Below, in pieces: positions 10,067-63,858 of a DNA stretch of 64,000 nucleotides. A program made the position numbers and the translations under genes. The DNA comes from Thuidium tamariscinum (Eukaryota; Streptophyta; Bryopsida; Hypnales; Thuidiaceae), in the NCBI GenBank assembly GCA_947034885.2, contig OX344750.2, forward strand, positions 34,830,821 to 34,894,820, written 5' to 3'. The notes below the pieces were generated by a model that worked only from the letters and a program-made list of their open reading frames with translations, was not told where the DNA came from and did not search any database. Each line of letters starts with the position of its first letter. Within the stretch, counting starts at the first letter, position 1.

Positions 10067-10998
10067 TTAACCCCTAAAGGACCAAAGTGCTTTTTTGGCA
10101 ACATAGCGATTTTGGGCAGGTACGTGTGACTAGAGATTTCTATATTTTGGAACCAAAATTTAATAGAAGGTGTGGACGAGGAGTATCTTTCAAGCACAAC
10201 AATTTTTATGACTTTTGACTACATGGTTGAAAAGTTATTGCATAATATGTTGTTTGTTTCTCAACTCGGGCAGTTCGGGCAGATCAGAAAAAATCACTTT
10301 TTTTGGAAAACAAAATTTGAAATTGATTTTATAGATTTATATATATGTATAAATCTTTGAATCATTCCATTTGGATTAATGAGTCAAAAGTTATGCAGAA
10401 TTTTAGTTTGCGGGTAGTTATGGATTCTCTACTCTAAAATAAACTTTGAAGTCCTTTATTTTACTCAATTTTCAATATTTTTGAAAAAAACAAAAAACAT
10501 TGGATGTAGAATGTTTATTACAGCATTTGAACCATTGAGATTGGCATTTTTCAATTCAATAAATAAATTGTTAAACATTTAGTGTTTTGAATAATTCTCT
10601 ACTTCTCTCTACTTACTATTTTTTTTGTACATGTTGTACAATTCGAAATGATTTGAAATTTTTTGAGCATTTAGCCAACTTGAATTGAAGAATGAATCCA
10701 AAGAGTAACAACCATTTTGAATATTTTTTCATACAAATGTGGCCTTCTGAAGTGCAGCTGCCCGGATTTCCGCAGTGATAAAAAAGGGATTTTTGTAACT
10801 TCAAACACTATTATCTTACAATCTACATGGCGGAATTTTCTGAAATTTTTTATACATGCTCTCAAACTAGCTTACTCTAAGATCCTACGGTTACATTATT
10901 CTAAAAATGTTCTTTTTAAAAAATTTGATAGTTATCCTAAAAATGACAGTTTTGGAGCAATTTTGGTGAAAACATAGTCAAAAACCTTTAGGGGTTAA
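10067..10998 (+). mobile_element. Family 1 TTAA-type MITE, copy 2, intact ends
   Basis: The element is 924 bp (10071-10994) and is bounded by TTAA at 10067 and 10995. The ends are CCCCTAAAGGACC on the left and CCTTTAGGGG on the right. A TTAA target with CCC..GGG ends is what piggyBac-type transposons show; Kolobok elements also use TTAA. The interior carries the family landmarks GAGTCAAAAGTTATG, CTACTTACTATTTT, TGTTGTACAATTC, AAGTGCAGCTGCCCGGATTT and GTGAAAACATAGTCAAAAACC. It has only short open frames, so it is non-autonomous. Confidence 0.9.
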
Positions 10999-11800
10999 CT
11001 GCTAAAGGTTGTTGACTATGTTTTCACTGAAAATGCTCCCAAACTCATTAGATGTTTTTTGGGAGATTGGAAGACTGTTTTAGGCATGTTCCCAATGTTG
11101 TGAACAGTCAGAATAAAATATAATAAAAAAATAAAAAAATACTTTTTTTCGGAAAAAAAAAATTAATTTTTTAATTTTTTAATATTATTATCTGACGTGG
11201 CAGTCTCTCGACCACATCAGATCGCAGATGTGGCAGTTCCCGACAGCGTTCCCACAGTTGGGAACTCGTAGTCTTCTAAATTGCTGAAAAAACATAAGAT
11301 TTTTTAGTAATATGGTTTGAAAAGATGTGGAAAAAATTTCAGAAATTTCCACCATGTAGATTGCAAGATATTAACATTTGAATTGGCAAAAATCATTTTT
11401 CAATCCTTGTGAAAATCCGGGCAGCTGCACTTTACAACGTCACATATATATGAATTCTTTTTCGAAATGGTGGTTACTCTTTGAATTCCATTTTCAAAGC
11501 AAGTTGGCTATATGCTCAAAAAAATTCAAATCGTTTGGAATTGTACAACATAAAGGAAAAAAATAGTAAGTAGAAAATGCTTCAAAATACTAAATTGTGA
11601 ACAATTTATTTATGGAAGTGAAAACTTTCAATTCCGAAGGTTGTAATATTGTAATAAAAAATCTTCACCCAATTTTTTTAATTTTTTTTCAAAAATATTG
11701 AAAATTGAATTAAGTAAAGAATCTCAAGTTCTACCACTACCCCCAAACTACCCCAAACTAAACCTCCTTATAACTTTTGACTCATTGATCAAAATAGAAC
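10995..11800 (-). mobile_element. Family 1 TTAA-type MITE, copy 3, inverted and truncated
   Basis: This reverse-orientation copy begins at the TTAA shared with copy 2 (CTGCTAAAGG then GTTGACTATGTTTTCAC). It is split by a Family 2 MITE at 11047-11300 and resumes with GAAAAGATGTGG, GCAAGATATTAACATTTGAA, CCGGGCAGCTGCACTTTACA and ATAACTTTTGACTCATTGAT. It stops at about 11800, where L21-like exon sequence starts, so its outer end is missing. Copies 2 and 3 form a large inverted pair. Confidence 0.85.
11047..11300. mobile_element. Family 2 MITE, copy 2, nested in Family 1
   Basis: The left end is ATTAGATGTTTTTTGGGAGA and the right end is GTCTTCTAAATTGC with AAAACATAAGAT. The core is CTGACGTGGCAGTCTCTCGA with GTTGGGAACTCGTAGTCTTC. 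It interrupts Family 1 copy 3, so it is the younger of the two. Confidence 0.8.
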
Positions 11801-12330
11801 TCTGTTGTTGAAGAACATGTAAGGAAGAGAGCTCCTATTTCTCTAGTACCAGATTTTAGTATGCATTTCTAAGAGATCTCCTATGCGCTCAATTACGCAG
11901 ATGGCAGACAATTTTATAAGTGAAAGATACACGTTGGTTTTATGCAGGCACTGGATGAGAAGGTGATCATATTCAAGAAGAAGAGATGAAAGAATTATCG
12001 TAGGACTACAGTACTGGTCATTGCCAAGTAAGAAGAATTGACTTATAATGACGACCAAAAATTGTGATCGTTGATGCCAGCCAGTAATTGAATTGTTTGG
12101 ATTTTACAGGCTACAAGACAAAGGTGTCTCTCATGGCTTGGGTTTAGATAACGTACGTGAACACAGGAATTGAGTCGACTAAGACTTTTGGAGGTCAAGG
12201 GTATCAATGTGGAAACAGCTCCCCTCAAAGCATTGTGAGAAGCGGAAGCTATCCCTTCTTCTTCGTCAAAAGCGCAAGAAACGTCAAGGGCAGATCCTAA
12301 TACTGAAGGTGGGCTTTCGTCTGTTTCGGC
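11801..12330 (+). pseudogene. Broken mitochondrial-type ribosomal protein L21 gene (bL21m)
   Basis: The end of one exon, VVEEH at 11804-11818, is followed by a proper GTAAGG..TATGCAG intron (11819-11947). A second exon (11948-12027) reads ALDEKVIIFKKKR, stop, KNYRRT, then a region like GHRQ, and ends at a GTAAG donor. This is the conserved core of bL21, in which family members read KVIIFKKKRRKNYRRT-GHRQ. The Arg codon after KKKR has become TGA, and about 5 extra bases shift the frame before GHCQ. Later fragments after a TTTTACAG acceptor at 12109 are degenerate. The 5' part is missing because a Family 1 copy abuts at 11800. Retained introns show a genomic rather than retrocopied origin. Confidence 0.7.
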
Positions 12331-12475
12331 TTGAGAATAATTAGAATGTGGAGTCGTTCAATTTTTCATTGAGCCTAGTTATTGCAGCAACGACGATTTG
12401 GCAATCTCTTGTGTCGCAAGGTAACTGTAGAGCACCTGTTAACGTAGTTGTACAACGGTAACTAGGGTGATGCGC
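12331..12475. other. Non-coding tail of the L21 pseudogene region
   Basis: Moderate GC sequence with no clear coding signal. Confidence 0.4.
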
Positions 12476-12550
12476 AAATGGTATTGAGGCTCTTCAAGTC
12501 TGTACAGTACATCATATCATCTACAGACTTGAAGAGCCTCAATACCATTT
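12476..12550. repeat. Perfect 29-bp inverted repeat with a 17-nt loop
   Basis: The left arm at 12476-12504 contains GGTATTGAGGCTCTTCAAG. The right arm at 12522-12550 is its exact reverse complement. A transcript would form a 29-bp hairpin with no mismatch. The flanks give no transposon ends. A small-RNA precursor or a recent template-switch snap-back are both possible. Confidence 0.9.
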
Positions 12551-13050
12551 GTATTCTCAGTCTCTAATATCCACTGTAGGATCAAGCTAATTCTTACAAT
12601 GACTTGTGTTTATCGTTATGGACTAGAGAACTGGGAAGCTTGAGATGGATATCGGATATAAATGGTCTCCATTGTAGACATTGAGATCTCGCTTTGGGGC
12701 GAATGGAGAGTCTACAGTAAGCAGATTCACCAAGAACCCTCTCGTTCTTGGTGAACCAGGAAAAGACACCTCTTTTGAGGATCCAGACGGTACCCGATTA
12801 TGTGCTCACCCTGCACACCTTTTTTCCTTCCTAACTGTTGCCCTTCCGACTCATTGTTTTCATTCTCTTCTGATGCACCGTAAGTATGTCTCTTTCCACC
12901 ACTTCCATAAGAATCTTTTTTCCATACTTTTGACCGATGAATCTTGTTTGACTATTATCAAACCCATAGTGGTTAACCCCTCAGTGTCTAGACTCATCTC
13001 TAGAAATGATGATTTCCGAAAAATCACCATACTATTTGGAAGAATATTTT
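12551..13050. other. Moderate-GC segment of unknown origin
   Basis: A second small stem-loop is present: TTCACCAAGAAC (12726-12737) pairs perfectly with GTTCTTGGTGAA (12744-12755) across a 6-nt loop. An open frame at 12681-13058 (125 codons) has no recognisable domain and is rich in repeat-like flanks; I do not call it a gene. Confidence 0.35.
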
Positions 13051-16000
13051 GGAGTTGAGATGCAAAACAAAGTTGGAGAGTTGGAGTTTTCAGATTTTAT
13101 CTTTAACAGTTAGATTCACAAATGGTACCACCAATATTTTTCTATAAATTTTGAAAGGGAAAATTCAAAATTTCTTTTAAATTCAATTACAGGCAATTGA
13201 CATGGTTTATTCATAAAGTATCTCTAAAATTAGGATGAATTTCATCCAAGCTATAATGAAAAAAATTTATGGATTTCAAATTGTACAACTTCTAAAAATT
13301 GGACATCAAAGTGATTAGGGTTAACCCAATAGTGCCACTAGTGCCAATTTTTGGCATTTAGCTGACTTTGAAGGGTATGAAGAAGACCTTAACATTAGTT
13401 TTTTCATTCACTTTTTCTTTAATGACCTTTCATGTTGAGTTGTAAAGAGTCTCCAATTGAGTTTTTAGTCTAACTACGTAGTTTCAGTCTAACTATGTAG
13501 TTGAGAAGTAATTAGAAAAAACACATGGCAAAATTTTCCACCTTAGTGTATTTTGAGCCTAACTAATGAAATGAAGGTCCTCTACTCTAGTTTCTATTCC
13601 AATTGGAATTTTGGAGAAATTTGTAGAATTGAAAATTTTATTGCATTTTGAACTTTGGTTGCATTTTTAATGTCCACTCCATCCTAATTATAGAAGTACA
13701 TGGAAATTGATCTTCCACCATGATGTTTTTCACTATAATGTACATACATGGTGAAATTTTCAGATTTTTTGAGGTAATTTTCTATTTGATATGATTTTTC
13801 TTCACTTTTTCTTCAAAAATTTACATAAAAATCAATTTTCCTCAAAAAAATATAATTTTTTTGTGAAGTATAGAAGACATGTACTTTCATACCTGAAAAA
13901 TAAAAATAAAAATTTTCATACATATCTGCTTTGAAAATGGTAACAAACTGAGTGCCGGACAAGGAGGCTTCAAACTAGTGGCTATAGGTCCATCCTTTAA
14001 GGATTAAAAGTGCTCTTGTGCATAGGATATAAGAATAGGATGAAGTAATGATATACACTTTGTCCATGTAAAGGATATATAATTAATTTAAATAAATAAA
14101 ATTTTATTTTTCATCAAATAGTAGTATAACAATGAAACTAATTTTACTATTAATACTAATTTTATGTTGATACTTATATGATATTTCGATATTAGCATTC
14201 CTATAGTACTTTGTAGGTGAAAAAGCTTGAGTATAGGACATAATAGTTATAGTTTAGGTAAATATACATTTGATTACACTATTTAAATTAGTAATGTTTT
14301 GATTTTAAATTTAATAATGTTTTATTCAAATTTCTACATGAACGTTGGTAATGACTATTTTGGAGACCTCAGAAATAGAAATAATTATTGTTCTAAAAAA
14401 AGTGATTTAGAGTTCAATAAGGTTACTAAAGTTACAAATTATTGTCTTAAAGAAAGTGAAATATAGTACAATAAGTGTACTTGGCTTATAGGAAAGTTAT
14501 TTAAGTGTTCTTATCTTGCATAATGCTATTGAAAATATGGTATTATATTGTGTGATATTATTGAAAAAATAATGGTGTATTTATTTGAAATTATGTCCCA
14601 TTCAGCCAACCAACTTGCATCACATCAAGCCTTAGTTCTGGGACACAAGCCAAAGGCAAATTTGCTCCAATTCAAGTTGATTTTGAGTTGTTTTACAAAA
14701 TAGAATGTATGGGGTCCAGAACCTTGGGAATACTTCCATTGCCAAATTATAAATGAAAGCGATGAATCCGCTTGTATGAATCTTGAGTACGTTGAAGTCT
14801 TTGGTCAATTTTACTAGGAATTGAAGGATTCTCTAAGTTCTAAAAGAGTTTGGGTAGGAGATTGTAGGTGGAATTGTTTTAGAATTGTTTAATCCATCGC
14901 CCTATCTATGTCCATAACTCTATCTAATGTTTGACTAATGAATCAACCTTCAATTTTTAAGATTTAAAATAAATAAATCCCTCAATTTTTAAAGATTTAA
15001 TTGTATAGAATTTGAATATTTATAATGAAATTTTGTCATGGTTCAATTTTTGAAGGAATAATATATTTTTCATTAAAAAATGACTTTATAGATTCTCAAA
15101 ATTCTCATGGAAGATGAAGTAATCCTTTTTCAACCAAATGTAATTACAAATAGTTGAAAACATGCCTACTAATTTTATAAGGATAAGAAGATTGAAAGAT
15201 TATTTTGAAAGTCTTACAATCAATTGAAGTACTTCAAAAAATAATAATAAATCTACATGATTATGATTGACTATTAGTTGTTAATGATTAGTTCATAGTT
15301 TTCAAAAAAAGATAAAATTTGGATCCAAGATGCTCTCAAGTATAGTCATTGACCAAATTTCACTTCCTAAACATAAAAGTGCAATCTATAATTACTTTGC
15401 ATACATAGTCTAGAAAACAAAAATTGTAAGTATAAATAACTGAAAAAAAAATGATCTTAACATGGATTAATGCAAAATTCAATACAAAAGTGGTAAAATT
15501 ATATGTCACTATATGTTCATACAATTTTTTCACTTTAGATTATAGAATTTGATATACAAATAATTTAATATATTCAAAATTATGCATGGATAAAAAATTT
15601 TAAAAACATGTCACCTTGACAATAATTTTGAATGAGTAACTTTGTATTGAAAGTCTAATGACATAGTTTTTTTTTCCTAAAGGACCAGCGGTGTTTTTCA
15701 CAAAAATATCCCAAATTACCACTTTCTAGTGTATTGAGGATAATTGAGATAAAAAACATTTTAAAAACATTTCAATCTTACAAATTTGTACGAAACTACT
15801 ATAGGATTTTGTAGAAAAATTATAGACCATTTGATTTTATAGATTAGAAGATTATAACATTTAAAGTTTAAAAGGAAAATTAATTTTAGACTTTGCATAA
15901 AGGATTGGTATATTTTGACTTAACTTTGTAGAGAAGGATGCAATATCTAACTTTGGGAATTTAAAACATTGAATAGATGGCAATTTTCAAAGACAATGGA

Positions 16001-16207
16001 GTTTTCTTGCATACCCCATCACCTTGTACTAAAAGAATGTTCAAGAAACAACTACATGAATAAGATTTCAACTATTTTTTGACAATTAATTTTTTTGAAA
16101 AAATCAAAATTGCAATGGTCAAGACAAAACTTGAAATCTATTAATTAGAATGCACAATAGAGTATCAATCAAAATGGCATTTCTAAATTCACAAGAAAAG
16201 AAATTCT
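13051..16207. other. AT-rich intergenic DNA
   Basis: No gene is seen. Possible decayed Family 1-type ends occur at 12975 (TTAACCCCTCAGTG) with 13989-14008 (GGTCC..TTTAAGGATTAA), and at about 15680 (CCTAAAGGACCAGCGGTG), but interior similarity to Family 1 is lacking. Confidence 0.4.
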
Positions 16208-16560
16208 AGTGCTACCAACTTTTGATACCCTCCAAAGGGCTGAAAAATTAGTTTTTACCATGAAATTTTATATATAAAATCACCTTTATGTTGATAACAT
16301 ATATGCCAAATTTCAAGACCAAAAAATTTCAAGATACAAAAACAGATATTCAAAATCTACCAAAATTTGTAGATGTGAGAAAATTTGTAGTGTTGCCAAC
16401 TTTGACACCCTTCCAAGGATTGAAAATTTTTTTCCATGAAAATTTTGCCATGAGATCACCTCTATGTTGGTAATACATGTGCCAAATTTCAAGGTCAATA
16501 TACAAACACTTAAGGGTAGAATCATTGAAATATTTCTCAAGAACAACAAATAAAATCTTG
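16208..16560. repeat. Tandem duplication, two units of 181 bp
   Basis: AGTGCTACCAACTTTTGATA at 16208 is repeated as AGTGTTGCCAACTTTGACA at 16389. Both are followed by CCAA-GG-TGAAAA, CCATGA, ATCACCT-TATGTTG-TAA and GCCAAATTTCAAG. The 181-bp spacing is in the range of plant satellite monomers, but only two units are present. Confidence 0.75.
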
Positions 16561-27450: not shown

Positions 27451-27572
27451 CTTCTCTAAAAAGCGACCTCTACCACAGAGGTACATTCTGCTTTCTTCAC
27501 TGTATCAATAGTGTACATTTCAGGAGTGCTTGTTGTAATAATCATTGATATTGTTTCAACTTCAAAAATCTG

Positions 27573-29474: not shown

Positions 29475-29790
29475 AAGCTCATAATCAACGTTCCCAAAAC
29501 TGGCTAAATTTCGCTTGGTTTCTACCAAAAAAATCCTTGTGCTACTATTACATTGTAAAAAAGGGCCTTTAATGGAGCCATTTTAGTCAAAATTACAACA
29601 AACAATAAAATTTGATAACCAATTTGCAACTTCTTCTATAATAGAGTTAGCACATATTTAGTTAGTTTTGTCTTATAGTACTCCCAATAATCCTTCACAA
29701 GTTGATGCCTATCTCTCTTGAAAGGTAGCATATTGCACTAAATTTCAAAAATAGTTTTGGGATCATTGCTCATAATGATGCTTATATGGA
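29475..29790 (+). repeat. Dispersed repeat D, copy 1
   Basis: Matches 58855-59126 plus 59402-59505 in order: TCCTTGTGCTAC, AAAAAAGGGCCTT-AATGGAG, TTTAGTTAGTTTTGT, CCTTCACA, GTTGATGCC, and GGTAGCATATTGCACTAAA. The second copy is interrupted by a Family 3 MITE. No terminal repeats were found here, so the nature of D is unknown. Confidence 0.7.
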
Positions 29791-31007: not shown

Positions 31008-31025
31008 ATGGTACCAACAAACACC

Positions 31026-32780: not shown

Positions 32781-32786
32781 GATAAG

Positions 32787-34049: not shown

Positions 34050-34845
34050 CATAGGGAAGAGGAATATCTTTCATGTGAACTAAAAATCAAGACATTTGGA
34101 AATATGAATCAAAAGTTATGGCCTAATAAGGGTTTTTTTCCATAAATGAACAATTTAGGTAGATTGAATTTTTTTTAAAACAAAAATGTGAAATTAGTTT
34201 TCTACATTTATGTATGTGTAGAAAGCTTTGATTCATTCCATTTTGATCAATGAGTCAAAAGTTATGACAAGTTATAGATTTTCTACTCTAAAATAAATTT
34301 TGAAGTCCTTTATTTTATTCACTTTTCAATTTTTTTGGAAAAAAATGAAATCATAGGATGTATATTGTTTATTACAACATTCCAACCATTGGGATTGGAA
34401 TTTTTCAATTCCATAAATAAATTCTTAACAATTTTGTATTTTGAATCATGTGCTACTTCTTTTTACTTACTATTTTTATCCTATATATGTTGTACAATTC
34501 CAAATAATTTAAAATCTTTTAGGCAAGTATCCTATTTGGTCTAAACAATGAATCCAAAGAAGCACAACCATTTTGTACCATTTTTATATGATTTTAGGCT
34601 TATGAAGTGTAGCTGCCCTATTTTCTGTAAGGTAAAAAAATATATTTTTGAGCATTCAAATACTAATAACTTGCAATCTATATAGTAAAAAATTTTGAAT
34701 ATTTTTTTATGTTCTCAAATCAATTTTCTTTAAAGATCCTACAATTACAAATCTCAAAAAATGTTTAAGAAAAAATTGGTATTGGTATTAGAAATGATAG
34801 TCTTTGACTTTTTTTGGAGTAAAAATTGTCAAGGAATTTAAGGGG
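34050..34845 (+). mobile_element. Family 1 TTAA-type MITE, copy 4, left end decayed
   Basis: Family landmarks appear in order: GAGGAATATCTTTCA, GATCAATGAGTCAAAAGTTA, TGTTGTACAATTCCAAAT, AAGTGTAGCTGCCC and ACTTGCAATCTATA. The right end is AATTTAAGGGG followed by TTTAA. The left terminal repeat is not recognisable. Confidence 0.75.
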
Positions 34846-35084
34846 TTTAAAAAAAAAGTCTTCAAAATATATATTCATACTACCCTTTAAATTTTTTTAA
34901 ATTATTGCATAAAGGCATACATCAATGACTTATAAATTTCTAGAACTAGAAGTCAAATAATTTGATTTTAAATTTTTTTTAAATATACTTTTCTAAAAGT
35001 AGATGCTTATTGGAAGAAAATCCTAACATTTCTGTCTCAAAAAGTCTTATTTCAATTTGGACTTTGACTTCTCAAGTAAATTTT

Positions 35085-35968: not shown

Positions 35969-37289
35969 TTAACCCCTAAAAAACGAGTACATCTTGGATT
36001 TTCTAAAAACTTAGGAAGGCTATGTTGACATCATAATTTGAAATGTTTGCATGAATTGCTTTGGATGGATGACAATCATCCTAATCCACACGTAAAGCTT
36101 TGCTTCACTTTGTTTCAATAAATATTACAAAAACTAGGAGCTTTAAATAAAAATTCAATGCCAAAATAGAAAGCTATAAATACATTCAAAAACACAATTG
36201 ATCAATATTATTGGATTATACTGATAATATTTACTCAAAACATTTGAATCATGAAATTCTGAATATTGAAACAAAAGCTATGAAGAGTTTTCTTAGGGCA
36301 ATGGAAGAGAATAAAACACATAATCATTTCTTAAACTCAATTTTTAAAATTTCCGAATCAAAGATTAAGAAAATAGGATATCAATTGTTTACTAGAGAAA
36401 CCTCACTGATGCTAGTTTGTAAGCCTAAAAGCATGAGCTTGCGAGTTGTGAGCATAGGTTTTGTGAGCCCAAAGAATTAACCAAAAAAAAATATAAATTT
36501 TTCAAGCCAAGAGAAAAAAAAAGTGAAGTCATTTAAAAAAAATCTATTTATAGTAAAATTTCAGCTTCATGACCATGGACCTATGACTGTGGACCTATGA
36601 CCGTGGAAATGTGGTTAATGTATTTTAAAATTTCAAACCCTACTATCTCCAAAGGGCATCTCAATACCTTCCAAAAAAGATTTTGAATTTTTGAAATTTT
36701 TTTTTGAGGTTCAAAATCCAAAATCCAATAAGAGGTTTTGTAGGGTGATGGAGTCGTGGAAAAAAAAATAAAAAAATAAAAAACTTTTTTTTTCTTTCTT
36801 CCCGACTTTATCACCCTGAAATTGATCTCTCAATACCAAGAGAAGGTTTTCAAGGGTGAAAAGTCACCAAAAAAATGAACTAGTAGCATAGTCGGAAAAA
36901 AAAAAGTTGAAAAAAAATGAAAAGAAAAGTTTTGAGAGCTCCCAAGTCCCAAGTCCTCTACCTCCAAACCCCTTTCAATATCAAGAAGGATTTTGGAGGG
37001 TGATGGAGTTGCAAAAAAAATTTGAAAAATAAAAAAAGGACTTAAAAAAAAAATTGAAAGAAATTGAAATTTTTTTTTTGAAAAAAAGAGTTTTGAAATT
37101 CACAAATTTCAAATCCCATGAGGGGGATATTAGATATAAAAATCCAAAATTCTTAAAGCACTGTAATAGGTCCATGCCTTAAAAATCACTAAAAATTTCA
37201 CCAAAAATTTCTAGGCTCACAAGCTCGCAAGCTCATAGGCTCACACTCGCACGCTCACAAAATAGCATCCCCGGTCCCTTAGGGGTTAA
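35969..37289. mobile_element. TTAA-type element with other interior, split by Family 5
   Basis: TTAACCCCTAAA at 35969 and TTAGGGGTTAA ending at 37289 are matching ends of the Family 1 type, with GGTCC just inside the right end. The interior left of 36408 does not match Family 1, so this is a relative with a different interior. Most of its present length is the Family 5 insertion at 36408-37269. The 89-codon frame at 36211-36480 crosses the insertion boundary and is not a gene. Confidence 0.6.
36408..37269. mobile_element. Family 5 element (862 bp) with long GTGAGC-rich inverted ends
   Basis: The left end GATGCTAGTTTGTAAGCC leads into GAGCTTGCGAGTTGTGAGC. The right end carries CACAAGCTCGCAAGCTCATA and finishes GCTCACAAAATAGCATC, its imperfect inverse over about 60 bp. 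The interior is very A/T homopolymer-rich, with repeated AAAATCCAAAATCC-like stretches near 36700 and 37140. No protein is encoded. Confidence 0.75.
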
Positions 37290-37307: not shown

Positions 37308-38229
37308 GGGACCAAGCTACATTTTTTGGCAATATAGAAATTTTTTGGGCAACTATGTGTAATTAGAGATTTTATTATTTTTTCTTAAAATTTTTACACA
37401 ACACATGGATGAAGAATATATTTAAGGACCAACAATTTTCATAACTTTTGGCTATGTAGCTAAAATGTTATTGCATGATATGTTGTTTCTTTCTCAACTC
37501 GGGTTGTTTAAGCAAATTTGACATATAATTTCTTTTCTAAGAAACAAAAAATTTAAATTGATTTTCTAAATTTACATATACATGGAAAGCTTTAAATCAT
37601 TTTATTTTGATCAATGAATCAAAAGTTATGAGGAGTTTTTGTTTGAAGGTAGTTATATGAATTCTATACTCTAAAATAAACTTCAGATGAAGTCCTTTAT
37701 TTCACTCAATATTATATTTTTTGGAAAAAAACAACATAGGGTGCAGATTGTTTATTGCAACATTAAAACCATTGAGATTGAGATTTTTCAATTCCAAAAA
37801 TGAATTCCTTACAATTTAGTATTTTGAATCATTCTCTATTTTCTACTTACTATTTTTTTTCCTATATGTTGTACAATTCAAAATGATTTCAAAATTTTCA
37901 AGCATGAGGCCAACTTGCCTTGAAGAATGAATTCAAAGAAGTACCAACAGTATGAACATTTCTTCATACAAATGTGAGCTTGTAAAGTGCACCCACTTTA
38001 TTTTTGTAGGGCTTAAAATAGGATATTGACCAATTCAAACACTTATATTTTGCAATCCACATTGTACGAATTTCTAAAAAACAATTCACATCTTTTAAAA
38101 CCTATATACTACAAGAACCTACAATTATATCCATCAAAAAATGTTATTTTTCTAAAGTTTGGTATTTCTACTAAAAATAGTAGATTTGGGGCATTTTGAG
38201 TTTAAACATAGTCAAAGAACTTTAGAGGT
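37308..38229 (+). mobile_element. Family 1 TTAA-type MITE, copy 5
   Basis: The copy starts near GGACCAAGC..TTTTTTGGCAATATAG and carries CAACTCGGG, GATCAATGAATCAAAAGTTATG, TGTTGTACAATTC and GTGAGCTTGTAAAGTGCA. The right end is decayed (ACTTTAGAGG then TTGA). The left TTAA end is not intact; the CTTAGGGGTTAA at 37279-37289 just upstream belongs to the neighbouring element. Confidence 0.7.
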
Positions 38230-39129
38230 TGAAGATGAATTAAAAAAATTTGTGTGAATATTTTTACACACATTTTCACCCCATCTTCTAATATTATTAT
38301 TTGATAAAATGAGAAAATTGTCAGATATATGTGTTTGTTTTTTAAATGTTGAAAGATAAAACTTCACCTTTTGAAAGGTCTAAAAAAGCCCACAATTTGA
38401 AGTTTAAGCACATTGAACTTTACAATTGAATTTGCTAAAATATAAATATAGATTTAAATTTTAGTCTTGCTTTGGCAATCAATATTTTGAAGTAGTTCTT
38501 GGTCTCTAAACATGAGACTTTTAGGGGTTAGCAACTCAATCATGACATCAATGATATAACAAAAAGTGATTAGATTTCCACCTTCATTCAAATCATTGCA
38601 TATATTGTGACAAATAATTACCTCAATGATTGCAATGAATACTACTACAATATAAGATCAACATCCCTACTCCACTCTTTTCAATTTATTAATGAATGAT
38701 CACATGCATTTTATCGTCAAAAGTTCTTATTAATGAAATTATATGAAATATAATTTATTTATATTTTATTCAAAAATATTCCAAAATCTAATTGAGTTTT
38801 TTGAAATGAATCTTAAAATTTTGAATTTTTGTTAAATAATTGTTTTCCTATGTGCAAAATTATATCATTCTAACTCCTCAATGTCCAAACAATAATTGTT
38901 ACTTCTTTTCTATAGGTGTCTAAATACCAAAAAAATGATTTCTTTTATTTATGTAATTGTAAAGTTGTCTTTCCATATGTAGATTTAGACCAAAACTTCA
39001 CCTTGAATGATTTTCAAACTCAAACACATCAAGGGATGTTCATTGTCATTGTGCAAACTATCTTGGGAGAAAGTCCTAGACAATTAGAAGTAATGCAAAA
39101 AATTTGAACTTTTGAATTCTTTTTACCAT
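38230..39129. other. AT-rich intergenic DNA
   Basis: A solitary Family 1-like end (CTTTTAGGGGTTAG) sits near 38519. The 63-codon frame at 38916 lacks any domain. Nothing else is recognised. Confidence 0.4.
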
Positions 39130-43915: not shown

Positions 43916-43948
43916 TTAACTCGTAAAGGTTTTTGACTATGTTTCTAC

Positions 43949-44294
43949 ATAAGAGGATTTATGAGCCCCTAGAAGACCGTTTCAAGGTTGTTCCCTGAAA
44001 TTGTTCCCACTACTGCAAACCAACTTGTGCTAGTCTGAATTTTGAATTTTTTTTCCAAAAAACTTCATAATGTATTTTTTGAATGTAACTTCATATGTAA
44101 TAAGAAAGAAAATGATTTTTTTATTTCAATTTTTATTTCAAAAATATTTAATAATTAATTTAATTAATTAATTAGTTAGTATTTTCTGACGTGGTAGTTG
44201 CTTGACAACATTAGCATAGCATTCTCAACATTCCCAATGTGTTCCCAGTGTTTGGGAATTCGCAATCTTCTAAAAAGGCCAAAAATCCTCTTAT
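43949..44294. mobile_element. Family 2 MITE, copy 4, nested in Family 1
   Basis: The ends are ATAAGAGGATTTATGAGC with CTAGAAGACCG, and CGCAATCTTCTA with AAAAATCCTCTTAT. The core has CTGACGTGGTAGTTGCTTGA and TGTTTGGGAATTCGC. It is slightly longer than other copies. Confidence 0.75.
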
Positions 44295-45201
44295 GCAAAA
44301 ATCACTACAAAACTACGACTTCTAGTACAAGTGCAATTCTTTTGAAGAAAAACTTTTTTTGACATATTTTACCGTAGGATCTTGTAGTTAGGTGGTTTGA
44401 AAAGATGTGGAAAAAATCTCAAAAACTTTCACCATGTAGATTGCAAGATATTAACATTTGAACTAGCAAAAGTCCTTTTTATAACCCTACAAAAATTTGG
44501 GAAGCTGCACTTTACAAGGTCACATTTGTATGAAAAAATACTCAAAATGATGGTTACTCTTTGAATTCATTTTACAATTCAAGTTGGCTATATGGTCAAA
44601 AATTTCAAATCATTTGGAATTGTACAACATATAGGAAAAAAATAGTAAGTAGAAAGAATTAGAAAAGGCTTAAAAATACTAAATTGTAAACAATTTATTC
44701 ATAAAAATGAAAAATGACAATCCCAAGGATTAAAATATTTTAATAAACAATCTTCACCCAATGTTTTAGTTTTTTTTCAAAAATATTAAAAATTGAATTA
44801 AATAAAGAATTTCAAACTTTTTTGTAGAGTAGAAATTCTGTAACTACCCACAAACTACTACAAATTGAGATTCCTTATAACTTTTGACTCATTTGTCAAA
44901 ATGGAATGATTCAAATCTTTCCACATAGATAAAAATCTAATAAATCTATTTCAAATTTTTATTTTAAAAAAAACAATTTTTAAAGAAGTTTTTTTTGCTG
45001 CCCAGCTTGCCCGCAATTCAAAGGAAACAACATGTCATGCCATAAATTTTAAATTGTACAGTCAAAAGTTATGAAAATTATTGGGCCTTAAAGCTACTCC
45101 TTGAACACATGTTCTATAAAAATTTCAAAGAAAAAAAATAAAAATTCCATTCGTAGTGAGCTGCCCAAAATTTCTATGCTGCCAAAAAATGCAGTTCATG
45201 C

Positions 45202-45470
45202 ATTAGAAGAAATTTGAGGGCATTACAAGGTCGTTTTGAGTCTGTTCCTGAAACGGCTCCCAATGCCACTAGCTGCTATCAGGCCGACTTTAATCAAATC
45301 AAATCAAATTGGGTCCTGAAATATGAAAATAAGTCCAAATTATTATTTTTTAAATTAATTAATTATATAGCAAGGTCGCGACTACATAGGATTTGAGTTC
45401 ACAAGGCAGAAACTGTGTTCCCGCAGTCCGGGAACCTGTAGTCTCCTAATGCCCTCAAATTTCATCTAAT
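45202..45470. mobile_element. Family 2 MITE, copy 5, nested in Family 1 (269 bp)
   Basis: The ends are ATTAGAAGAAATTTGAGGGC and GCCCTCAAATTTCATCTAAT, with GTCCGGGAACCTGTAGTCTC near the right end. The GC content is higher than in the host element, suggesting a younger insertion. Confidence 0.8.
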
Positions 45471-45485
45471 GGCTTTAGGGGCTAA

Positions 45486-46250: not shown

Positions 46251-46254
46251 GAAG

Positions 46255-47665
46255 GTCCTTTTCACATCGCTCACCCAGGCCAACTGGCCGAGAGCCGATC
46301 CCCACCCCATCGCTGGGCAGCCCACCCATCAGGAAGGAGTTGCGCCGCAGCACGCTTCCCCGTCCCAATCCTCAGGCTGCTTATCAGCCCCGTGCCAATT
46401 TTGTTTTTTTTTGTTTTTTTTCCGCTTGTGCAGGTCCAGCCCCGCGAGTCGCTCGCTGGGCGGCTGTTTCTGCTTGCCAAGCTGTAACTTAATGGACGAA
46501 GACGGCGACGACGACGAACTGAAGATGAAGACGAAGACGACTCGCCGTAGAGACATGACTCATCTCCATGTAATTCCCCGTTGCACTCCAGGCATTCACT
46601 ATTTAACTTAGCTTGAGCCTTTCCTGTGGCAGTAGGCATAGCGGCGGGCAAGCTGTTGCACAGCTTTCGAGGTAGATTGGGAGGGGAAGGGAATGTCGGC
46701 GCAGTGAAGACGACCATTTGGCTTTGGCTGAGGGTGGTAGTTCGTACACACCAAAGTTTCGTACGGTAATAAGTGATGTTATGGGAGTGCTGTGGTTGAA
46801 TTGGAGCTTTGGAAGCAGCTGATTAAATTCAGATGTACGATCAGGGTGGTCATTGGTTTGCAGCTCGGCCAGAGGTGGGTAGTTAGCTGCTACCCTGTAT
46901 TATAGACTCTTTCGGATTGCGTGCGCTTTCGGTGATGGCGTTCCCGTTTCAAAACGCATTCAATCCGGATTTGCCTGCGCTTTCCGTGAGGCTGTAAGTT
47001 TCGGAGGAAGCTGTTGGTTTGGGAGTTGCAGGAAGCTGGTTGGAAGAGTTCATGATCGCATTGTTTGAGGGTACGGGATTTGGGAAGCGTTGGCTATGTT
47101 GTTTCTATATCGTTGTGGGGGCGTTGTTGCTTGGTGCCGCTGGCTTCGTGCGTCTTGTTGGTTGTCCCGTTTTTGCGCCTGGCTTCTGGGATGACTTGCG
47201 TGTGGAAGTTGCTGTGACGAGTAGGTGGTGATGAACTGGGTTTGGGTGATCTGATTGGGTTCTTGATTTCGATTAAGTTTAGAAATCTTGAGTCTCAAGA
47301 ATTTAGACGGTAGCTCTTCGTTGATTGATTGAGCTGCGGTTCGGGGGAATTTGAGGCTGGAGGAAAATGATATGTATGCTGACTCCCGTTCATTTGTCCA
47401 CTGTTGGGGCTCAGTGGTAATTGCTATTAGAAGGACGACTATTCGCTGGATTCCTGAACGGTGGTGTCGCAGTTGCCAGATGGATGTTGCTTCTTTAATT
47501 TGAGAGTAACGAGTTTGTTGTATTTGAAGCTCTTCTCTGTGATGTTTTGCTGGTTTGGACAGAGTGTGGAGCTTCGATCAAGCGGGGCTTGGAAGAGAAG
47601 GAATCAAACTAATATTCTCTTCAATGGTTTGAAGACGCGGGAGCTGGGGCGCTATTGACTCCAGT
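46255..47665 (+). promoter_or_regulatory. GC-rich promoter and long 5' leader of the TAR gene
   Basis: Composition changes abruptly to GC-rich at about 46265. A purine-rich GAC/GAAGAC repeat lies at about 46495-46540. The main start codon is at 47666, with an in-frame TGA upstream at about 47624. Several upstream ATGs open frames of up to about 70 codons (for example 47019-47231), so the leader may impose upstream-ORF control or hold an intron; no convincing splice pair was chosen. The 148-codon minus-strand frame at 46271-46717 is not supported by any domain. Confidence 0.5.
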
Positions 47666-49671
<2,006 letters not shown>

Positions 49672-50938: not shown

Positions 50939-51891
50939 TTAACCCCTAAAGCCCTTAACAACCTTTTTTGAGATTATAAATTTTTTGGGCAGCTCACTAC
51001 AGATGGAGTTTTTATTTTTTTTTATTTTAAATTTTGATACAATGTGTGCCCGAGGAGCATCTTTAAGGCCCGACAGTTTTCATAACTTTTGACTTCACGA
51101 TTAAAAAGTTATGGCAGGATATGTTGTTTTCTTTACTTGGCGGGCAGCCCGGGTAGCTGAAAAAATTTCTTCAAAAAAACTTTTTTTTTAAAGTGAAATT
51201 TCAAATTGGTTCTTTAGGTTTATAAAAACATGGGAAGCTTTGAATCAATCCATTCGGATCAATGAGTCAAAAGTTATGAAGATTTTGAGTTTGGGATAGT
51301 TTGCGGCCAGTTACAGAATCTCTACAGTACAAAAAAAGTTTGAAATTCTTCATTTAATTCAATTTTTCATATTTTTGAAAAAAAATAAAAACAAAAGGTG
51401 TAGATTATTTATTACAACATTTTAACCATTGGGATTGAAAATTTTCAATTCCATGAATAAAATGTTCACAATTTAGTATTTTGGCTCATTTTTTACTTCT
51501 TTCTACTTACTTATTTTTTCCTATATGTTGTACAATTCCAAATGGTTTGAATTTTTTTGAGAATGTAGCCAACTTGCATTGAAGTATGAATTCAAAGAGT
51601 AACCACCATTTTGAGGTTTTTTTCACACAAATGTGACCTTGTGAAGTGCAGCTGCCCGGATTTTCGCAGGGATAAAAAAACAATTTTTGTCAATCCAAAT
51701 GCTTATATCTTGAAATCTACATGGTGGAAATTTCTAAAAAAATTTCCACATGTTTACAAACCACCTTACTACAAGATCCTACGGTTATATGAGTCAAAAA
51801 TGTGTTTTAAGAAAAAAATTGCACTTGTATTAGAAATGGTAGTTTTGGAGCATTTTTGGTGAAAACATAGTCAAAAATCTTTAGGGGTTAA
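50939..51891 (+). mobile_element. Family 1 TTAA-type MITE, copy 7, intact ends (945 bp)
   Basis: The element is bounded by TTAA at 50939 and 51888. The ends are CCCCTAAAG and CTTTAGGGG. The full set of family landmarks is present (GGGCAGCTCACTAC, GATCAATGAGTCAAAAGTTA, TGTTGTACAATTCC, AAGTGCAGCTGCCCGGATTT, CAAGATCCTACGGTTA, GTGAAAACATAGTC). It lies directly at the end of the GC-rich tract behind the TAR gene. Its 83-codon frame at 51611 has a counterpart in copy 2. Confidence 0.9.
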
Positions 51892-53039: not shown

Positions 53040-53454
53040 TAGGTGTTGTCAGAAAAGACAATTCTATAAATCAAAAGGTAAATATTGTAGAAGATTTAAT
53101 ACATTGTGACTAATGTGCCTATTGCCCAACAAGGGCAATAGTTGCATTAGTTATAGTTTACTAAATCTTCGTCAACTTTTGAGTGTGGAGGATAATCTTT
53201 TTTATAATTTGTATAAACATTTTGCATTATGTAAGGTCCCTAGGTGCAAGTTTGTGTCATCATGGAACACTTTTAGATTATTTTTTTAATAATTTTTGGG
53301 TTGTTTTAACACACAATCCAAAAATAAATAAAAATTAGAAATTGTATCCACTTCCATATGTGAAGATATCTATTTAGGGTTTTTTTAAATTTTGGAGATG
53401 TCTTGAAATATTTTGTAAATCAAGAAGTAGGTGTTATAGAAGATTTAACCCCTA
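53040..53454 (+). repeat. Upstream unit of a tandem duplication, with an empty Family 1 site
   Basis: GTAGAAGATTTAATACATTG followed by TGACTAATG..TGCCCAACAAG here matches ATAGAAGATTTAA (53447-53458) plus TTAATATGTTGTGACAAATG (54371 on). Further shared blocks are ACACTTTTAGATT near 53267 and ACACTTTTAGATT near 54617. The TTAA at 53096-53099 is the unoccupied equivalent of the site holding Family 1 copy 8. Confidence 0.8.
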
Positions 53455-54374
53455 AAGGTTTTTGACTATGTTTTCACCAAAAATGCTCTAAAACTGCAAT
53501 TTCTAATACAAGTCCAAAATTTTAGAAAAAAAAACATTTTTTGACATATATAAGCATAGGATCTTGTAGTAAGTTAGATTGAAAAGGTGTGGATTTTTTT
53601 AAAAAAATTCCACTTTGTAGATTGCAAGATATTAACATTTGAATTGACAAGAATTCCTTTTTTATCCTTACAAAAATTGAGACAGCTACACTTCACAAGG
53701 TCACATTTGTGTGAAAAATGTTCAAAATCATGGTTACTCTTTGGATTCATTCTTCAATACAAGTTGGTTACATGCTCAAAAAATTTACAAATCATTTGGA
53801 ATTGTACAACATATAGGAAAAAAATAGTAAGTAGAAAGAAGTAGAAAATGCTTCAAAATACTAAATTATAAACAATTTATTTTTGGAAATGAAAAATGCC
53901 AATCCCAATGGTTGTAATATTTCAATAAACTATTTTCACCTAATGTTTCAATATTTTTTTTCAAAAACATTAAAAATTAAATTAAATAAAAAATTGCAAA
54001 CTTCTTTTTAAAATAGAGATTCTATGACTACACTCAAATTCCCCCAATTGACTAAAATTCCTCATAACTTTTGATTCATTGATCAGAATGGAATGAATCA
54101 AAGCTTTCTACTTAGTAAAAAACCTAAAGGACCAATTTCAAATTCTAATTTCTCAAAAAATTGTTTTTAAAGAAGTTTTTGAGTTGCCTAGATTGCCCAA
54201 AGATTAAAGAAAATCACATATCATGCAATAACTTTTTAACCATGTAGTCAAAAGTTATGAAAATTGTTGGGCCTTAAAGGTATTTCTTGGACACATTTTG
54301 AGTGAATATTTCAAATGAGCTGCCCAAAATTGCTATGTTGCCAAAAAAACACAATTTGGTCATTCAAGGGTTAA
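53455..54374 (-). mobile_element. Family 1 TTAA-type MITE, copy 8 (912 bp)
   Basis: Reverse-orientation copy from TTAACCCCTAAAGGTTTTTG (53455) to TTCAAGGGTTAA (54374), with TTAA on both sides. Landmarks are GACTATGTTTTCACC, GCAAGATATTAACATTTGAA, AAGGTCACATTTGTGTG, GAATTGTACAACATATAGGA and ATAACTTTTGATTCATTGAT. The frame at 53587-53844 crosses the conserved region and is not a gene. Confidence 0.9.
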
Positions 54375-58572: not shown

Positions 58573-58854
58573 TAATAGTACACCCAAAATCACATGTTGC
58601 CTAAACCATCATCATTCCTCTCTATCCTTTTCCAAGAATCAATATGTTCCTAAGTCGAAGAAACAAACTTCAAGAGCCTCTACCTCCAAATTGAAACTAA
58701 AACTTTGCCCCTTCCTAACTTTTGCATGTGGTATCCAAAAGTTACATTTTTTGGTGTATTGGAACCTCCTTTCACTAGCACTTACCAACAAGACCATATG
58801 AAAATTTGACCTACACTTTGACAAGTCACACATTGTGATAGTAAATTAGTAAAT

Positions 58855-59505
58855 AAGCACAACATCCACCAACAATCCCTAAATTGGCTAAAATTAGTTG
58901 AATTTCTACCAAAACAATCCTTGTGCTACAAGTACCTTATCAAAAAAAGGGCCTTCAATGGAGACATTTTAGCCAAAAACTATAACAAACAGTAGAATTT
59001 GCTAGCCAACTTGCAACTTCCTCCACTAAATGAAATTTGCATCCATTTAGTTAGTTTTGTACTGTAGAACTCCCAACAATCCTTCACATCTTGCAAAATC
59101 CTCACTTTTCCAAAAAAAATTGATACTAAGGTAGGTACACCCAAAAGTGCCAGTTTCTCTATTGTGCCTAGTTCCTGTTATTATGTTGTTCAAATTTTTT
59201 TACAGTCTTGTTGGTGAGTGAAAGCATGTTCCAACGCACCAAAGAACAGTGGATTTGGATACCGTATGCAAAAGTTATTAACAATCAAAGTGTGTTTCTG
59301 AAAGCGCCTCTACAGTCTGGGTACATGACTGATTTTGAAAATCTATGCACGTTGTACAGAGCGCTTTAAGGTCAGGTGCCATTTTGGGTGTACCTACCTT
59401 ATTCGCTATCAAGGTAGTCAAAGTTGATGCCCTTGTTTGTCTTGAAGGTAGCATATTGCACTAAAATCCATAAACTAATAAGTGAGTTCTGGGATCACTG
59501 GTACC
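58855..59505 (+). repeat. Dispersed repeat D, copy 2, interrupted
   Basis: Matches 29475-29790 and is split by the Family 3 MITE at 59127-59401. The match stops at GGGATCAC near 59500, where GC-rich sequence begins. Confidence 0.7.
59127..59401. mobile_element. Family 3 MITE, copy 2 (275 bp)
   Basis: The ends are TAAGGTAGGTACACCCAAAA and TTTTGGGTGTACCTACCTTA. It is the inverted counterpart of 27573-27849 (for example GCACGTTGTACAGAGCGC against GCGCCCTGTACAATGTGC) with few differences, so it is young. It is inserted in repeat D. Confidence 0.85.
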
Positions 59506-60180
59506 ACCTGATTCCTGTGATGTGCTGCTGGCCAGGCGGGCGGGCCTCATCTGCAATAGATTGCCGCATCATGCTGCAGTTGATAACTTAATATAGTATA
59601 CTTCTTCCGCCTGTTGGCCCTGTTCTGTTGCGTGCCTGAGTTCTCCGCGTTCGTTCGTTCCTTCCCTCCCTTCCCTTCCTCTGTCCGTCTGTCTGTGGCT
59701 GCCTGCCTGCCTGCTAACTTATCCTACTCTGCTCGATCCATTTGGGAGAACCATGAGATAGATTTCCGATCCCTCCTCCATCTAAGATAGCTCTCCAGTA
59801 AGTTAATGAGCTAGCTAGCCCCTCCAACGCAGCGATCTGGGATTGATTGATTTCAGGTGATACACATTGAGTTCTGTGGATCCTCTCCCTGTACTCCACA
59901 CCACGCAGTCACGCACAAATCCATGCCAGGACAGAGGGGGGTGGCGGGGGAGATTTGGTTGGTGCCAAAGTCATACGAGGCCTTAACTTACTGCTGGACG
60001 GGAGCGGCTTCAAGCATGTGAGGAAAGCCAGCCCGCCAGGCGAACGAACTGAGCTGGGAAAGCCGCCGCGGCAGAAAGCCAGGCAGCAGCAGCAGCCTTT
60101 CTTGGGCCAGCCGGATGGCTTCGGATGCTTCAGCAAGGGGGCATCAGGGGAGGTGGGGACCCCCCAAACACCACCTAGTT
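59506..60180 (+). pseudogene. GC-rich gene-like fragment in AT-rich surroundings
   Basis: GC content jumps at about 59506 and drops at about 60180. The fragment has CT-rich and CTGT/CTGC repeats like a plant leader (59640-59715). A plausible 59-bp intron follows (donor CCA|GTAAGTTAATG at 59798, acceptor GATTTCAG| ending 59856), then ATG at 59922, which opens only about 32 codons. A second frame from 59955 stays open for 104 codons (for example RQKARQQQQPFLGQPDGF) without a recognisable family. It looks like the 5' part of a host gene that was moved here or is decaying in place; no function is assigned. Confidence 0.4.
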
Positions 60181-60413
60181 ACCATTATTATTATATTGGT
60201 CAGATCTTCATATTTCTTTTGTTGGCACTTGAAAGAAGGTTCCAATGCACCAAAGAATGTGACATTTGAATACCGGATGCAAAAGTTATGAAGGAACAAA
60301 GTTTGATTCTAAATTGGGTTTTTTCATGTAGGTACACAATTGATTATGGAGATGTTTATGGAGTGAAGATGGTGGTTTAGGATTAGTGGTGCATTTGGAA
60401 GTGCCCACCTTTA

Positions 60414-62918
60414 TTGGCATCATAATATTTTGGTCATTTGGGTGACTACAATATTACACTTTCTAGCCATTTAGAGCAAACCTTTTTAGATGTTTGTTGC
60501 TAGCAACTATATTTCTTCTCATTAATTTTTTCTTTAGGCTTGTAGCTAGATCCAAAAAAAATGTCAAAAATTGTCAATACATAACTAGGAAAACGAAGGT
60601 TGGTCTTGAAAAAAGGTGTAGATAAAGGTATACCATGGAACAAGGTTAAGTTTGATAGAAAAAAATTGATTTACTAAAGAACAATGGTTTTCATTGATCT
60701 TGCTAATGTTGGAGTTTTCTTTAAAGTCTTTGGTAAGATTCTAATTCATGGAAATGAATGCATTTAATTCCTCAAATGGCTAAGTAATTGTCAAAGAGAA
60801 ATGTCTCCTCTTCAATTTTTTATTGCACATTACTTTGAAGAAATTGGAAAGAATCTAGTTATTTTGAATTTAAAAATTATTGAGAGTCTTATGTTGACAT
60901 ACTTTCAACATTTTTTGATTTGGAGAATTTGAAAAATAATGTGTAATGTTGCAAAATGGAATTAAAAAAAGAAGTCTTATGTAAAATAGTGAGGGATAAA
61001 ATTTGAAGACAAATTCTTGTGACATGAGTGGATTGGGTTGAACAACCCACTTTTATCATAATACTTGAAGTAGATAGTAAACTATATTTTGGTTGATGAA
61101 GGAGTTGCTCAATACATCCTTTACCAAAGTCTTGAAATTGCAGCACCTTATTTCTAGAATTCAAATTATGAACAAACTATGATGATCTCCAAAACATATT
61201 AGATTTGCAAAAAATACACTAATAACATTCATTGTAAGATATTTAAATGATTCCTACATATTTTTGAATATCACTTAAAGTGTGGTTGGTTTAAGTCTTA
61301 TTTTACACCATCATATTTGAAGATGTGTAATATTATTAAGAGTTTTTTTTTAGTTCATTTTTTAAATCCATGAAGAAAACATTAGTTCTAGATTCTAATC
61401 TAAGTTTTTGATTTGGAAATGATAGATTCTTTGTTTCATTATAAATCTTCTCTTAGAGAAGATTTATCATTTTGTATTTTAAGAAGAGAAGATTATACAA
61501 GGCTTAAATATTTTCAAGCTAAGTGAACTCCAAAGATGTAGTTACAAATTAGTAATTTTACAATTTTACAATTTGATACATTGATATAGTATTATTAATT
61601 ATGTATTGCATAAAATTCTCATTCTCTTAGGATGTTTTTCTTATTTATGAATTGATTTCTATTTGTAACTAAAAATTGGTAATTAATGGAATTAAAGGAT
61701 CTACCAATAGGAGTCCTTTTATTGCTTATCACACTTACCAAAACATATGAATGCAATAAGAATCCTTACTTGTTCCATAACTTTGCTCTAAAAATTCACT
61801 TACATATCTGAAGGAAAATAAGCTAATTTTTTCAATTCAAAATTCAAAGTTTTATTTTAGTTTTTTGTATATAATTATAATGTGAAAAAATCAAAATGCT
61901 ATTTTTATATTTTGTTAGATTTTTCATCCAATTGGATGTAAAAACAATCTAATAGTGTAATGATCATGTACAAAGAAATTCATCTTATATACATTTTCCT
62001 ATTTATTTATGATTTAATTCACATTCCACTTCTTGGCAAAAGTTATTTTGAAATACTTTAGAAGAATTTTTGTCCTTAATTCTTTGCAATGCAAATTTCT
62101 TTTAGATTTATAAAAAGTGTAGCTTATACATATGTAAAGTTTTTGTAAATGAATTTATATGTTTTTAGATTTACACAAATTATATTTCAAGGTTATCACA
62201 TAAATAATAATTTCTCTACATCCATAACGTACACTAAAAATGCAATCCTAGTACTACAACCATTGAAATATACATGAATACAAATAGTGTCAAAATGTGT
62301 GTCATTATAATCTACGAAGTCAATCATCAATATTTTTCACCATAAATATTATGTAAACTAGGAGGATTAGTCTTCACTTTTAGATGGTTGTAGCAAAAAA
62401 AATTCAAGCACATCCACATGCAAAAAAATTCAAAGTGGATTGACTTGCTTACAACCAATTCTCAAGAATTATATTGGCCTTGAGGGTTTAATAATTCAAT
62501 GTAGTAATTGAACTTGTGCAAAATCAACTTTATAATAAAAATCAAGTATTTTTAGTGCCCAATATAATAGACACAAGGAGTTAGAAGACGAGACTTCTTG
62601 AACATAAATTTGTTGAGTTCAATACATGATTTTTTTTTGCCCCCTTTCTTAATTCTGCCAAGTAGGCTTCTATCAAAATATCAACAATATGTCAATTATT
62701 GTCTAGATTATTGTCTAACTTCTATAACTTTATATATAGTGCAATATTCCTATATAGTAATAGAGTGTTTTTTTAGTGAATTTTTTTTTATCAAAGGCAC
62801 TTCAAACATGCATCTATAAATAATTCAATTCATGACCTCAAAAATTCACATAAATATCCTATACAAATAACACCCATCATGAAGTAAGATATAAAAATCA
62901 ATGCAAAAATTGTATTAA
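60414..62918. other. AT-rich intergenic DNA
   Basis: No gene is recognised. A perfect 13-bp palindromic pair (ATAAATCTTCTCT, then AGAGAAGATTTAT) lies at 61441-61467. Short frames at 60889 and 62598 have no domain signature. Confidence 0.45.
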
Positions 62919-63858
62919 TTAACCCCTAAAGTCCTAAATTGTATTTTTTAGGCAACACAACAATTTTGGGTAACTCACTACAAATGGAGTTTTTTTTTTT
63001 TTTCTTTGAAATTTTTAACAATATATGCCTGAGTAGTAGCTCTAAGGCCCTACAATTTTCATAACTTTTGACTTTATGGATAAAAGTTATTATATGATAA
63101 GTAGTTTTGCTTGGCGGGCAATTAGGGCAAAAACAAATATTCTTTCAAAATCATTTTCTTAAAAAATAAAAAATAAAAAATATTTTAATATTTATATATA
63201 GAGAGAGAAATATTTGAATCATTTCATCTTGATTTACAAAATGAAAGTTACGTGGGGTTTCAATTTGTGGGTAGTAAATAGGTATTATGGAATCTCTATT
63301 TTAAGATAAACTTTTAAAGTCCTTTGTTTTATTCAAATTTTTATATATTGAAAAAAAAATTAGGTATAGGTTGTTTATTAAAACATTGCAAACATTGGGA
63401 TTGGCATTTTTCAATTCTATAAACAAATGGTTAATATTTTAGTATTTTGAATCAATCTCTACTTCTTTCTACTTACTATTTTTTCTTGTATGATGTACAA
63501 ATCCAAATGATTTGAAAAATTTTCAAGCATGTAGCCAACTTTTTTTGATAGACAAATCCAAATAATGACCATTGTTTGAACATTTTTCATTCAAATGTGA
63601 CCGTTTTAAGTGTAGCTACCTAGGTTTTTTTAAAGTTTGTCAATTCACATGCTAATATCTTGCAATCTATACGGTAGAAATTTCTGAATCTTTTTTCATA
63701 TCTTTTCAAATTATCTTACTACAAGATCCTACAATAGCATGTGTTGAAAAATGTTTCTTTTAATTTTTATTTATTATTTTAAAAATTGGTACTTGTACTA
63801 GAAATGGAAGTTGTGGAGCATTTCCGTAAAAATATAGTCAAAAACCTTTAGGGGTCAA
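62919..63858 (+). mobile_element. Family 1 TTAA-type MITE, copy 9 (932 bp)
   Basis: TTAACCCCTAAAG at 62919 and CCTTTAGGGG with TCAA (a changed TTAA) at 63845-63858. Landmarks are GGGTAACTCACTAC, CATAACTTTTGACTTTATGG, CTACTTCTTTCTACTTACTA and ATAGTCAAAAACC. The interior is more decayed than copies 2 and 7. Confidence 0.85.

Follow-up and report, generated by a model that had tools for sequence, protein, structure and literature searches.

A TTAA-flanked family of short piggyBac-type elements and longer transposase-bearing relatives with the same ends in a probable moss genome

The 64,000-base stretch of DNA analysed here (the window) contains a family of short elements of about 930 bp, bounded by TTAA and ending in CCCC..GGGG, and the genome to which it belongs contains longer elements with the same ends that encode a piggyBac transposase. 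We conclude, with a probability of roughly 0.94, that the short elements are non-autonomous piggyBac elements, resembling miniature inverted-repeat transposable elements (MITEs), which are probably served by the transposase of these longer relatives. Four sets of observations carry this conclusion: the copies and their ends, the duplication of TTAA as seen against empty sites, transposase genes whose DDD residues align with those of solved enzymes, and long elements whose ends are the same and whose terminal regions can be aligned to the short ones in the same orientation. The original prediction, made from the window alone, had assigned the family to the piggyBac type, and this assignment is supported by the TTAA duplication, the terminal bases and the DDD transposase in a partner element.

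BLAST comparison of four named copies against the window detected nine family members longer than 500 bp, as expected from the earlier count of about nine copies of a 920-960 bp element, with a typical length of about 930 bp. The family occupies 7,554 of the 64,000 bases, including a 74-base piece of a distant subfamily. The coordinates first given for the four best copies held for three of them, while the start of the remaining one had to be moved by 10 bases, from 53455 to 53445. Both ends are kept in four of the nine window copies; three of these show TTAA on both sides, as had been predicted for all of them, and the fourth (62919-63858) has TTAA at the left and TCAA at the right. Over the longer aligned parts, the four named copies are 68-80% identical to the other members. 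The window holds 11 instances of the end motif CCCCTAAAGG with up to one mismatch, compared with an expectation of 2.5; none of 100 shuffles reached 11. The best copy, 10067-10998, is 932 bp long, has the layout TTAA + CCCCTAAAGG..CCTTTAGGGG + TTAA, and contains no stop-to-stop frame of at least 120 amino acids (aa). The copies and a related unfilled site in the window are as follows.

972-1635, plus strand: diverged copy, truncated at its 5' end (BLAST 75% over 690 bp).
10067-10998, plus strand: full-length non-autonomous piggyBac-type element, TTAA + 924 bp (10071-10994) + TTAA; outer inverted repeat CCCCTAAAGG, 10 bp, read from the sequence.
10995-11799, minus strand: older diverged inverted copy (BLAST 86% over 51 bp at the end, 76% over 524 bp), whose TTAA is also the one at the right end of 10067-10998.
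29486-29704, plus strand: empty paralogue of the site into which a 932 bp copy inserted at C2:31864303 (locus L029), 94% over 219 bp, with one TTAA.
34167-34847, plus strand: diverged copy, truncated at its 5' end (BLAST 75% over 703 bp).
37309-38230, plus strand: diverged, almost full-length copy with decayed TTAA (BLAST 74% over 931 bp; ends read).
43916-45485, minus strand: diverged copy (core 44296-45196) with remnants of both ends, TTAACTCGTAAAGG.. and ..GCTTTAGGGGCTAA, split by two insertions, one of about 350 bp near the left end and the other a repeat of about 280 bp at about 45190-45470.
50939-51891, plus strand: diverged full-length copy, TTAA at both ends (BLAST 78% over 868 bp; ends read).
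53445-54374, minus strand: diverged full-length copy, TTAA at both ends (BLAST 75% over 960 bp; ends read).
62919-63858, plus strand: diverged full-length copy, TTAA left and TCAA right (BLAST 70% over 977 bp; ends read).

Since TTAA is palindromic and stands at either end of an element, the copies alone cannot separate target from end. For this, the flanks of 37 entries were joined with a single TTAA and searched in the sampled sequence; the entries represent 36 insertions, as locus L011 is the window copy at 10067 and was thus entered twice. Paralogous empty sites with one TTAA were found, from which we conclude that TTAA is a true target duplication. The window segment 29486-29704 matches the joined flanks of L029 without any difference in the 64 bases displayed across the junction, the insertion at L026 has an unfilled relative 86% alike over 393 bp, and a related unfilled TTAA site for the 53445-54374 copy lies in the window at 53061-53133. 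Altogether, 55 junction alignments were obtained in the sampled sequence, with TTAA in 9 of them and another string in 46, in 30 of which two or three of the four bases were gapped. These 30 all come from L016, an insertion nested in a family copy and aligned to diverged copies, which alone contributed 40 of the 55 alignments; hence, these are not independent. When two of the joined junctions were searched for across the genome, all of the scored matches (40 of 40 in both cases) crossed the junction, and genome and query spans were equal in 37 and 36 of them, respectively.

The family extends far beyond the window. The exact 14-base end TTAACCCCTAAAGG is present 8,526 times (4,286 + 4,240) in the 363 Mb genome, compared with 2 (0 + 2) for the reversed control; with up to two mismatches, the numbers are 49,089 and 3,695, respectively. 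If all of the excess ends belonged to two-ended elements of about 930 bp, they would represent about 22,700 elements with a total of 21 Mb, or close to 6% of the genome, an extrapolation that includes other elements with similar ends and leaves truncated copies out of account. The proposal that the family is an unusual driver of intergenic DNA is plausible on this rough share of a few percent of the genome. Three exact ends lie in the 64 kb window against 23.5 per Mb genome-wide, so the window is probably richer than the genome average.

Identity was scored for 40 places in the genome, the top 40 among 8,858 first-look candidates. All of them, the window's own included, are 97-100% identical to the 932 bp copy 10067-10998 over 924-932 of its bases, and two places besides the window's own reach 100%. 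In all 30 of the genome copies fetched, similarity starts and stops at TTAA and the flanks are unrelated, which confirms the predicted ends, although as best matches to the full query these copies are an uneven sample of the family. Their termini are CCCC..GGGG, with the exception of L030, which has one changed base at the right end (..GAGG). A different sample was provided by the first eight exact ends on contig C1, taken in order along the contig and thus independent of internal similarity. Five of them could be matched to the window copy at E 1e-10 (73-86%). The other three ends (L004, and L002 with L003, both on a single element) belong to distant subfamilies whose ends are the same or almost so; L002 and L004, elements of 932 and 1,043 bp, were accordingly rejected as close family members. 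The first 100 exact ends on C1 include 18 adjacent pairs in the expected orientation and 704-939 bp apart, 15 of them at 915-932 bp, and the remaining 64 ends fall outside such pairs. Considered together, the 97-100% matches, the 73-86% loci and the distant subfamilies show that the elements are a swarm of subfamilies, some of them old and at least one young.

A longer TTAA-flanked relative with the same ends, whose existence the original prediction had made a check on the assignment, was found at C9:16263599-16271393. This partner is 7,795 bp long and carries the exact 14-base TTAACCCCTAAAGG at both ends. Its left end aligns from the first base to bases 1-215 of the short element in the same orientation (70%, E 2e-22), its right subterminal part aligns to bases 553-719, also in the same orientation (72.5%, E 3e-14), and the last 18 bases are identical between both elements. 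As a control, the best of 200 block-shuffled short elements reached 36.5 bits, the real matches being given here as E values. The boundary of the C9 element is shown by a copy on C7, which is 99.5% identical over 1,959 bp up to an exact TTAA, after which the flank is different.

The 521-aa frame of the C9 partner matches PF13843 at E 2.4e-78 and the solved transposases piggyBat (9c0f) and piggyBac (6x67) at 1.4e-26 and 9.6e-25, respectively. Residues D268, D346, D447 and D450 of 6x67, which we take to be the active-site residues of that transposase, are all aligned to D in the C9 frame. piggyBac transposases have a C-terminal cysteine-rich domain, and the 521-aa frame has cysteine pairs at its C-terminus, where the alignment to piggyBat is non-significant. 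A copy on C3, 99% like the C9 frame, has a stop-free open frame of 630 aa. In addition, a related family of the same transposase clade, 71% alike, has an open frame of 951 aa in three stop-free copies, and its right end on C3 is 74% identical to the window copy 50939-51891 over 188 bp, up to the last base (E 1.5e-28).

The genome contains at least 116 matches to PF13843 (DDE_Tnp_1_7), scored out of 658 first-look candidates, with a best E of 5.7e-80 and many of them with open frames. Gene-adjacent sequence was read for 42 transposases, 40 of these 116 and two more. Two further transposase elements could be delimited: that of L060, of 5.6 kb, with an inverted repeat of 20 bases that is perfect and begins TTAACCC, and that of L059, of 6.1 kb, with an inverted-repeat match of 18 of 20 bases beginning TTAACCCCTAA, for which an alternative left end would give 5.1 kb. 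A TTAACCC end was present within 2.4 kb downstream in 19 of 20 further transposases. At three of these 20 flanks (L063, L075 and L079) it is exactly TTAACCCCTAAAGG, and the proteins encoded there are 79%, 99% and 100% similar to the C9 frame; the end of a fourth transposase element, with 81% similarity to that frame, is TTAACCCCTAAATG. Nine fetched loci of another piggyBac family (L050-L058), located on five contigs (C1, C2, C5, C8 and C9) and with an open frame listed as 1,023 aa, showed 100% protein identity across the 991 aa that were read, which points to a very recent spread. This family was set aside as a partner because its ends, TTAACCCCTAAACG at the right and TTAACCCCTAAGCG or TTAACCCTGAAACG at the left, diverge after the first bases. 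A viral go-between was also sought by scanning viral contigs with the 521-aa transposase, and no relative was found with this single-protein query, which reaches close relatives only.

Two alternative readings concern the nature of TTAA itself. Kolobok elements also target TTAA, and according to PMC6004289, TTAA duplications and large MITE families of this kind (T2-MITEs) are found in Xenopus, so that in target and abundance they resemble the family described here. Their termini and their transposase are different: PMC9587614 gives 5'-RR..YY-3' for Kolobok, T2-MITEs start with AGGRR according to PMC6004289, and the short elements start with CCCC and end according to the 5'-CC..GG-3' rule that PMC10045372 and PMC9587614 state for piggyBac. 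We rejected the Kolobok assignment on these terminal bases, and the C9 partner, which has the same ends as the short element, carries PF13843; a Kolobok-type family is thus scarcely conceivable here. It is also highly improbable that TTAA is part of a longer inverted repeat, the target duplication being something else or absent. The copies, with a palindromic TTAA at both ends, are by themselves undecisive on this point, and the idea was rejected on the empty sites, as none of the 55 junction alignments lost all four bases of TTAA, nine show it, and in 73 of the 80 genome matches to the two joined junctions the span equals that of the query.

A third alternative accepts that the elements are of piggyBac type and supposes that they were moved by another, unsampled transposase clade, their ends being common through descent alone. 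The similarity to the sampled partners is about 70-75% with an unalignable middle, and the sequence next to the gene is known for the 42 transposases mentioned above. Against this, similarity in the right orientation reaches about 190-215 bases inward, on C9 from its left end and in the 951-aa family from its right end; among the ends read, the exact 14-base sequence is restricted to one transposase clade. We regard this alternative as unlikely, while giving it far more weight than the former two. Several observations weigh against service of the short elements by the C9-type relatives or against parts of the evidence for it. At the left end, the similarity of the best full partner to the short element is just about 70%, and bases 216-552 and 720-914 of the short element gave no alignment to C9 beyond short pieces at chance level; for these reasons, a direct parent of the short element was not found. 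The end of the 951-aa family carries 13 of the 14 bases (TTAACCCCTAAAGT), no end was present in the 851 bp of flank read for the clade member L084, and the same was true for 2.4 kb of flank of L068, one of the 20 described above. In the sampled sequence, the joined flanks of the C9 partner and of L060 gave no junction-crossing match; a single one was obtained with those of L059, and it has CTAA where TTAA would stand.

On balance, we favour non-autonomous piggyBac elements mobilized by their longer relatives. In the mechanism proposed, the piggyBac transposase from the longer relatives would bind the common ends of the short elements (CCCCTAAAGG plus subterminal sequence), excise the element at TTAA and join it to a new TTAA, which would become the 4-bp duplication. 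The short family is most likely the product of internal deletion of a longer element, and the C9-type clade is the candidate transposase source. By analogy with piggyBac, movement would be of the cut-and-paste type via hairpin ends. Identical copies at unrelated sites suggest that it is recent or may still be going on.

The likeness to the piggyBac superfamily, as represented by the Trichoplusia ni piggyBac (6x67) and piggyBat (9c0f), includes the TTAA duplication, the CCC..GGG ends and a PF13843 DDD transposase with aligned catalytic residues in an element with the same ends. In contrast to these systems, the elements reside in a land plant, probably a moss, the three that were read from one end to the other measure 5.6-7.8 kb, and the outer repeat of the short family is 10 bp beyond TTAA. 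MITEs derived from piggyBac in animals are short and non-coding, with TTAA, piggyBac ends and high copy number, all of which applies to the short family, which differs from them in its length of about 930 bp and its plant host. MITEs are usually smaller than 932 bp; the features of a MITE are nevertheless present here, namely short length, lack of a coding frame as described for 10067-10998, and the thousands of exact shared ends. A TTAA target is also used by Sola3 elements, with a Sola transposase; the C9 partner encodes a PF13843 protein instead.

Entries for PiggyBac do appear in plant repeat tables, with 1,230 copies and 0.00% of the assembly in Ceratopteris and 1 copy of 75 bp in Stipa in the tables of PMC6890710 and PMC8319324, and a review (PMC10004981) counts PiggyBac among the MITE superfamilies of angiosperms. 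Those are small counts or a list, whereas here transposase genes, ends, empty sites and thousands of end sequences were found. Matches to "piggyBac" in the text returned from a moss paper (PMC10619864) corresponded to the word "piggybacking" and were discarded. Full-text searches covering part of the literature found no report of such elements in land plants. This is, in conclusion, a known kind of element in an unusual host.

Other repeats of the window were also noted. The repeat of about 280 bp inside the 43916-45485 copy (45190-45470) has inverted ends ATGCATTAGAAGAAATTTGAGGGCATTA / TAATGCCCTCAAATTTCATCTAATG and is probably a second MITE family, as relatives of it are present in L024, L025, L036 and L059. 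The segment 39130-40267 (1,138 bp), with ends TTAATCCCTACAGGACCAAG / TTAACCCCCAAAGGACCAAG and a short part that resembles L004, is probably a further TTAA element. Another TTAA-flanked element is possibly located at 35969-37289 (1,321 bp), which starts with TTAACCCCTAAAAAACG and finishes in the complement of TTAACCCCTAAGGGACC.

Regarding the host, the plant origin first proposed could be narrowed to a probable moss by gene content. At 47633-49671, the window carries a gene of the tryptophan-aminotransferase-related/alliinase type, which lies in at least three pieces and has the domains EGF_alliinase and Alliinase_C. Dynein heavy chain, which to our knowledge is absent from angiosperms, gave nine genome matches at six sites. 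Contig C19 has an intact rbcL and was taken as plastid; no RNA_pol_A_CTD match was found on this presumed plastid contig, which is possibly incomplete, and the sole match was on the nuclear contig C2 (15618529-15618702), in an rpoA-type open frame of 360 aa. A nuclear rpoA is a moss trait. Dynein heavy chains, the alliinase-type gene and the nuclear rpoA-type match thus point to a moss as the most likely host. In addition, no match to BPD_transp_1 (cysT-type) was found, which makes a liverwort or hornwort host less likely; liverwort and hornwort plastomes carry cysT, and some have lost it.

Beyond the short family itself, we lean towards the view of a moss genome with a large, recently active piggyBac radiation, in which intact frames and identical copies occur in several transposase lineages, accompanied by a swarm of short piggyBac-derived elements that amounts to several percent of the genome. 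A mainstay of genome engineering in animals, piggyBac has usually been described from animals, fungi and protists. If our reading is true, this would be the first well-supported case of piggyBac in land plants, possibly with elements that are still mobile. A native and apparently recently active moss piggyBac would widen the natural host range of the superfamily, would offer plant-adapted transposases, and would account for a visible part of the intergenic DNA of this genome. It also makes the choice between an old plant lineage of piggyBac and its sideways acquisition a testable question.

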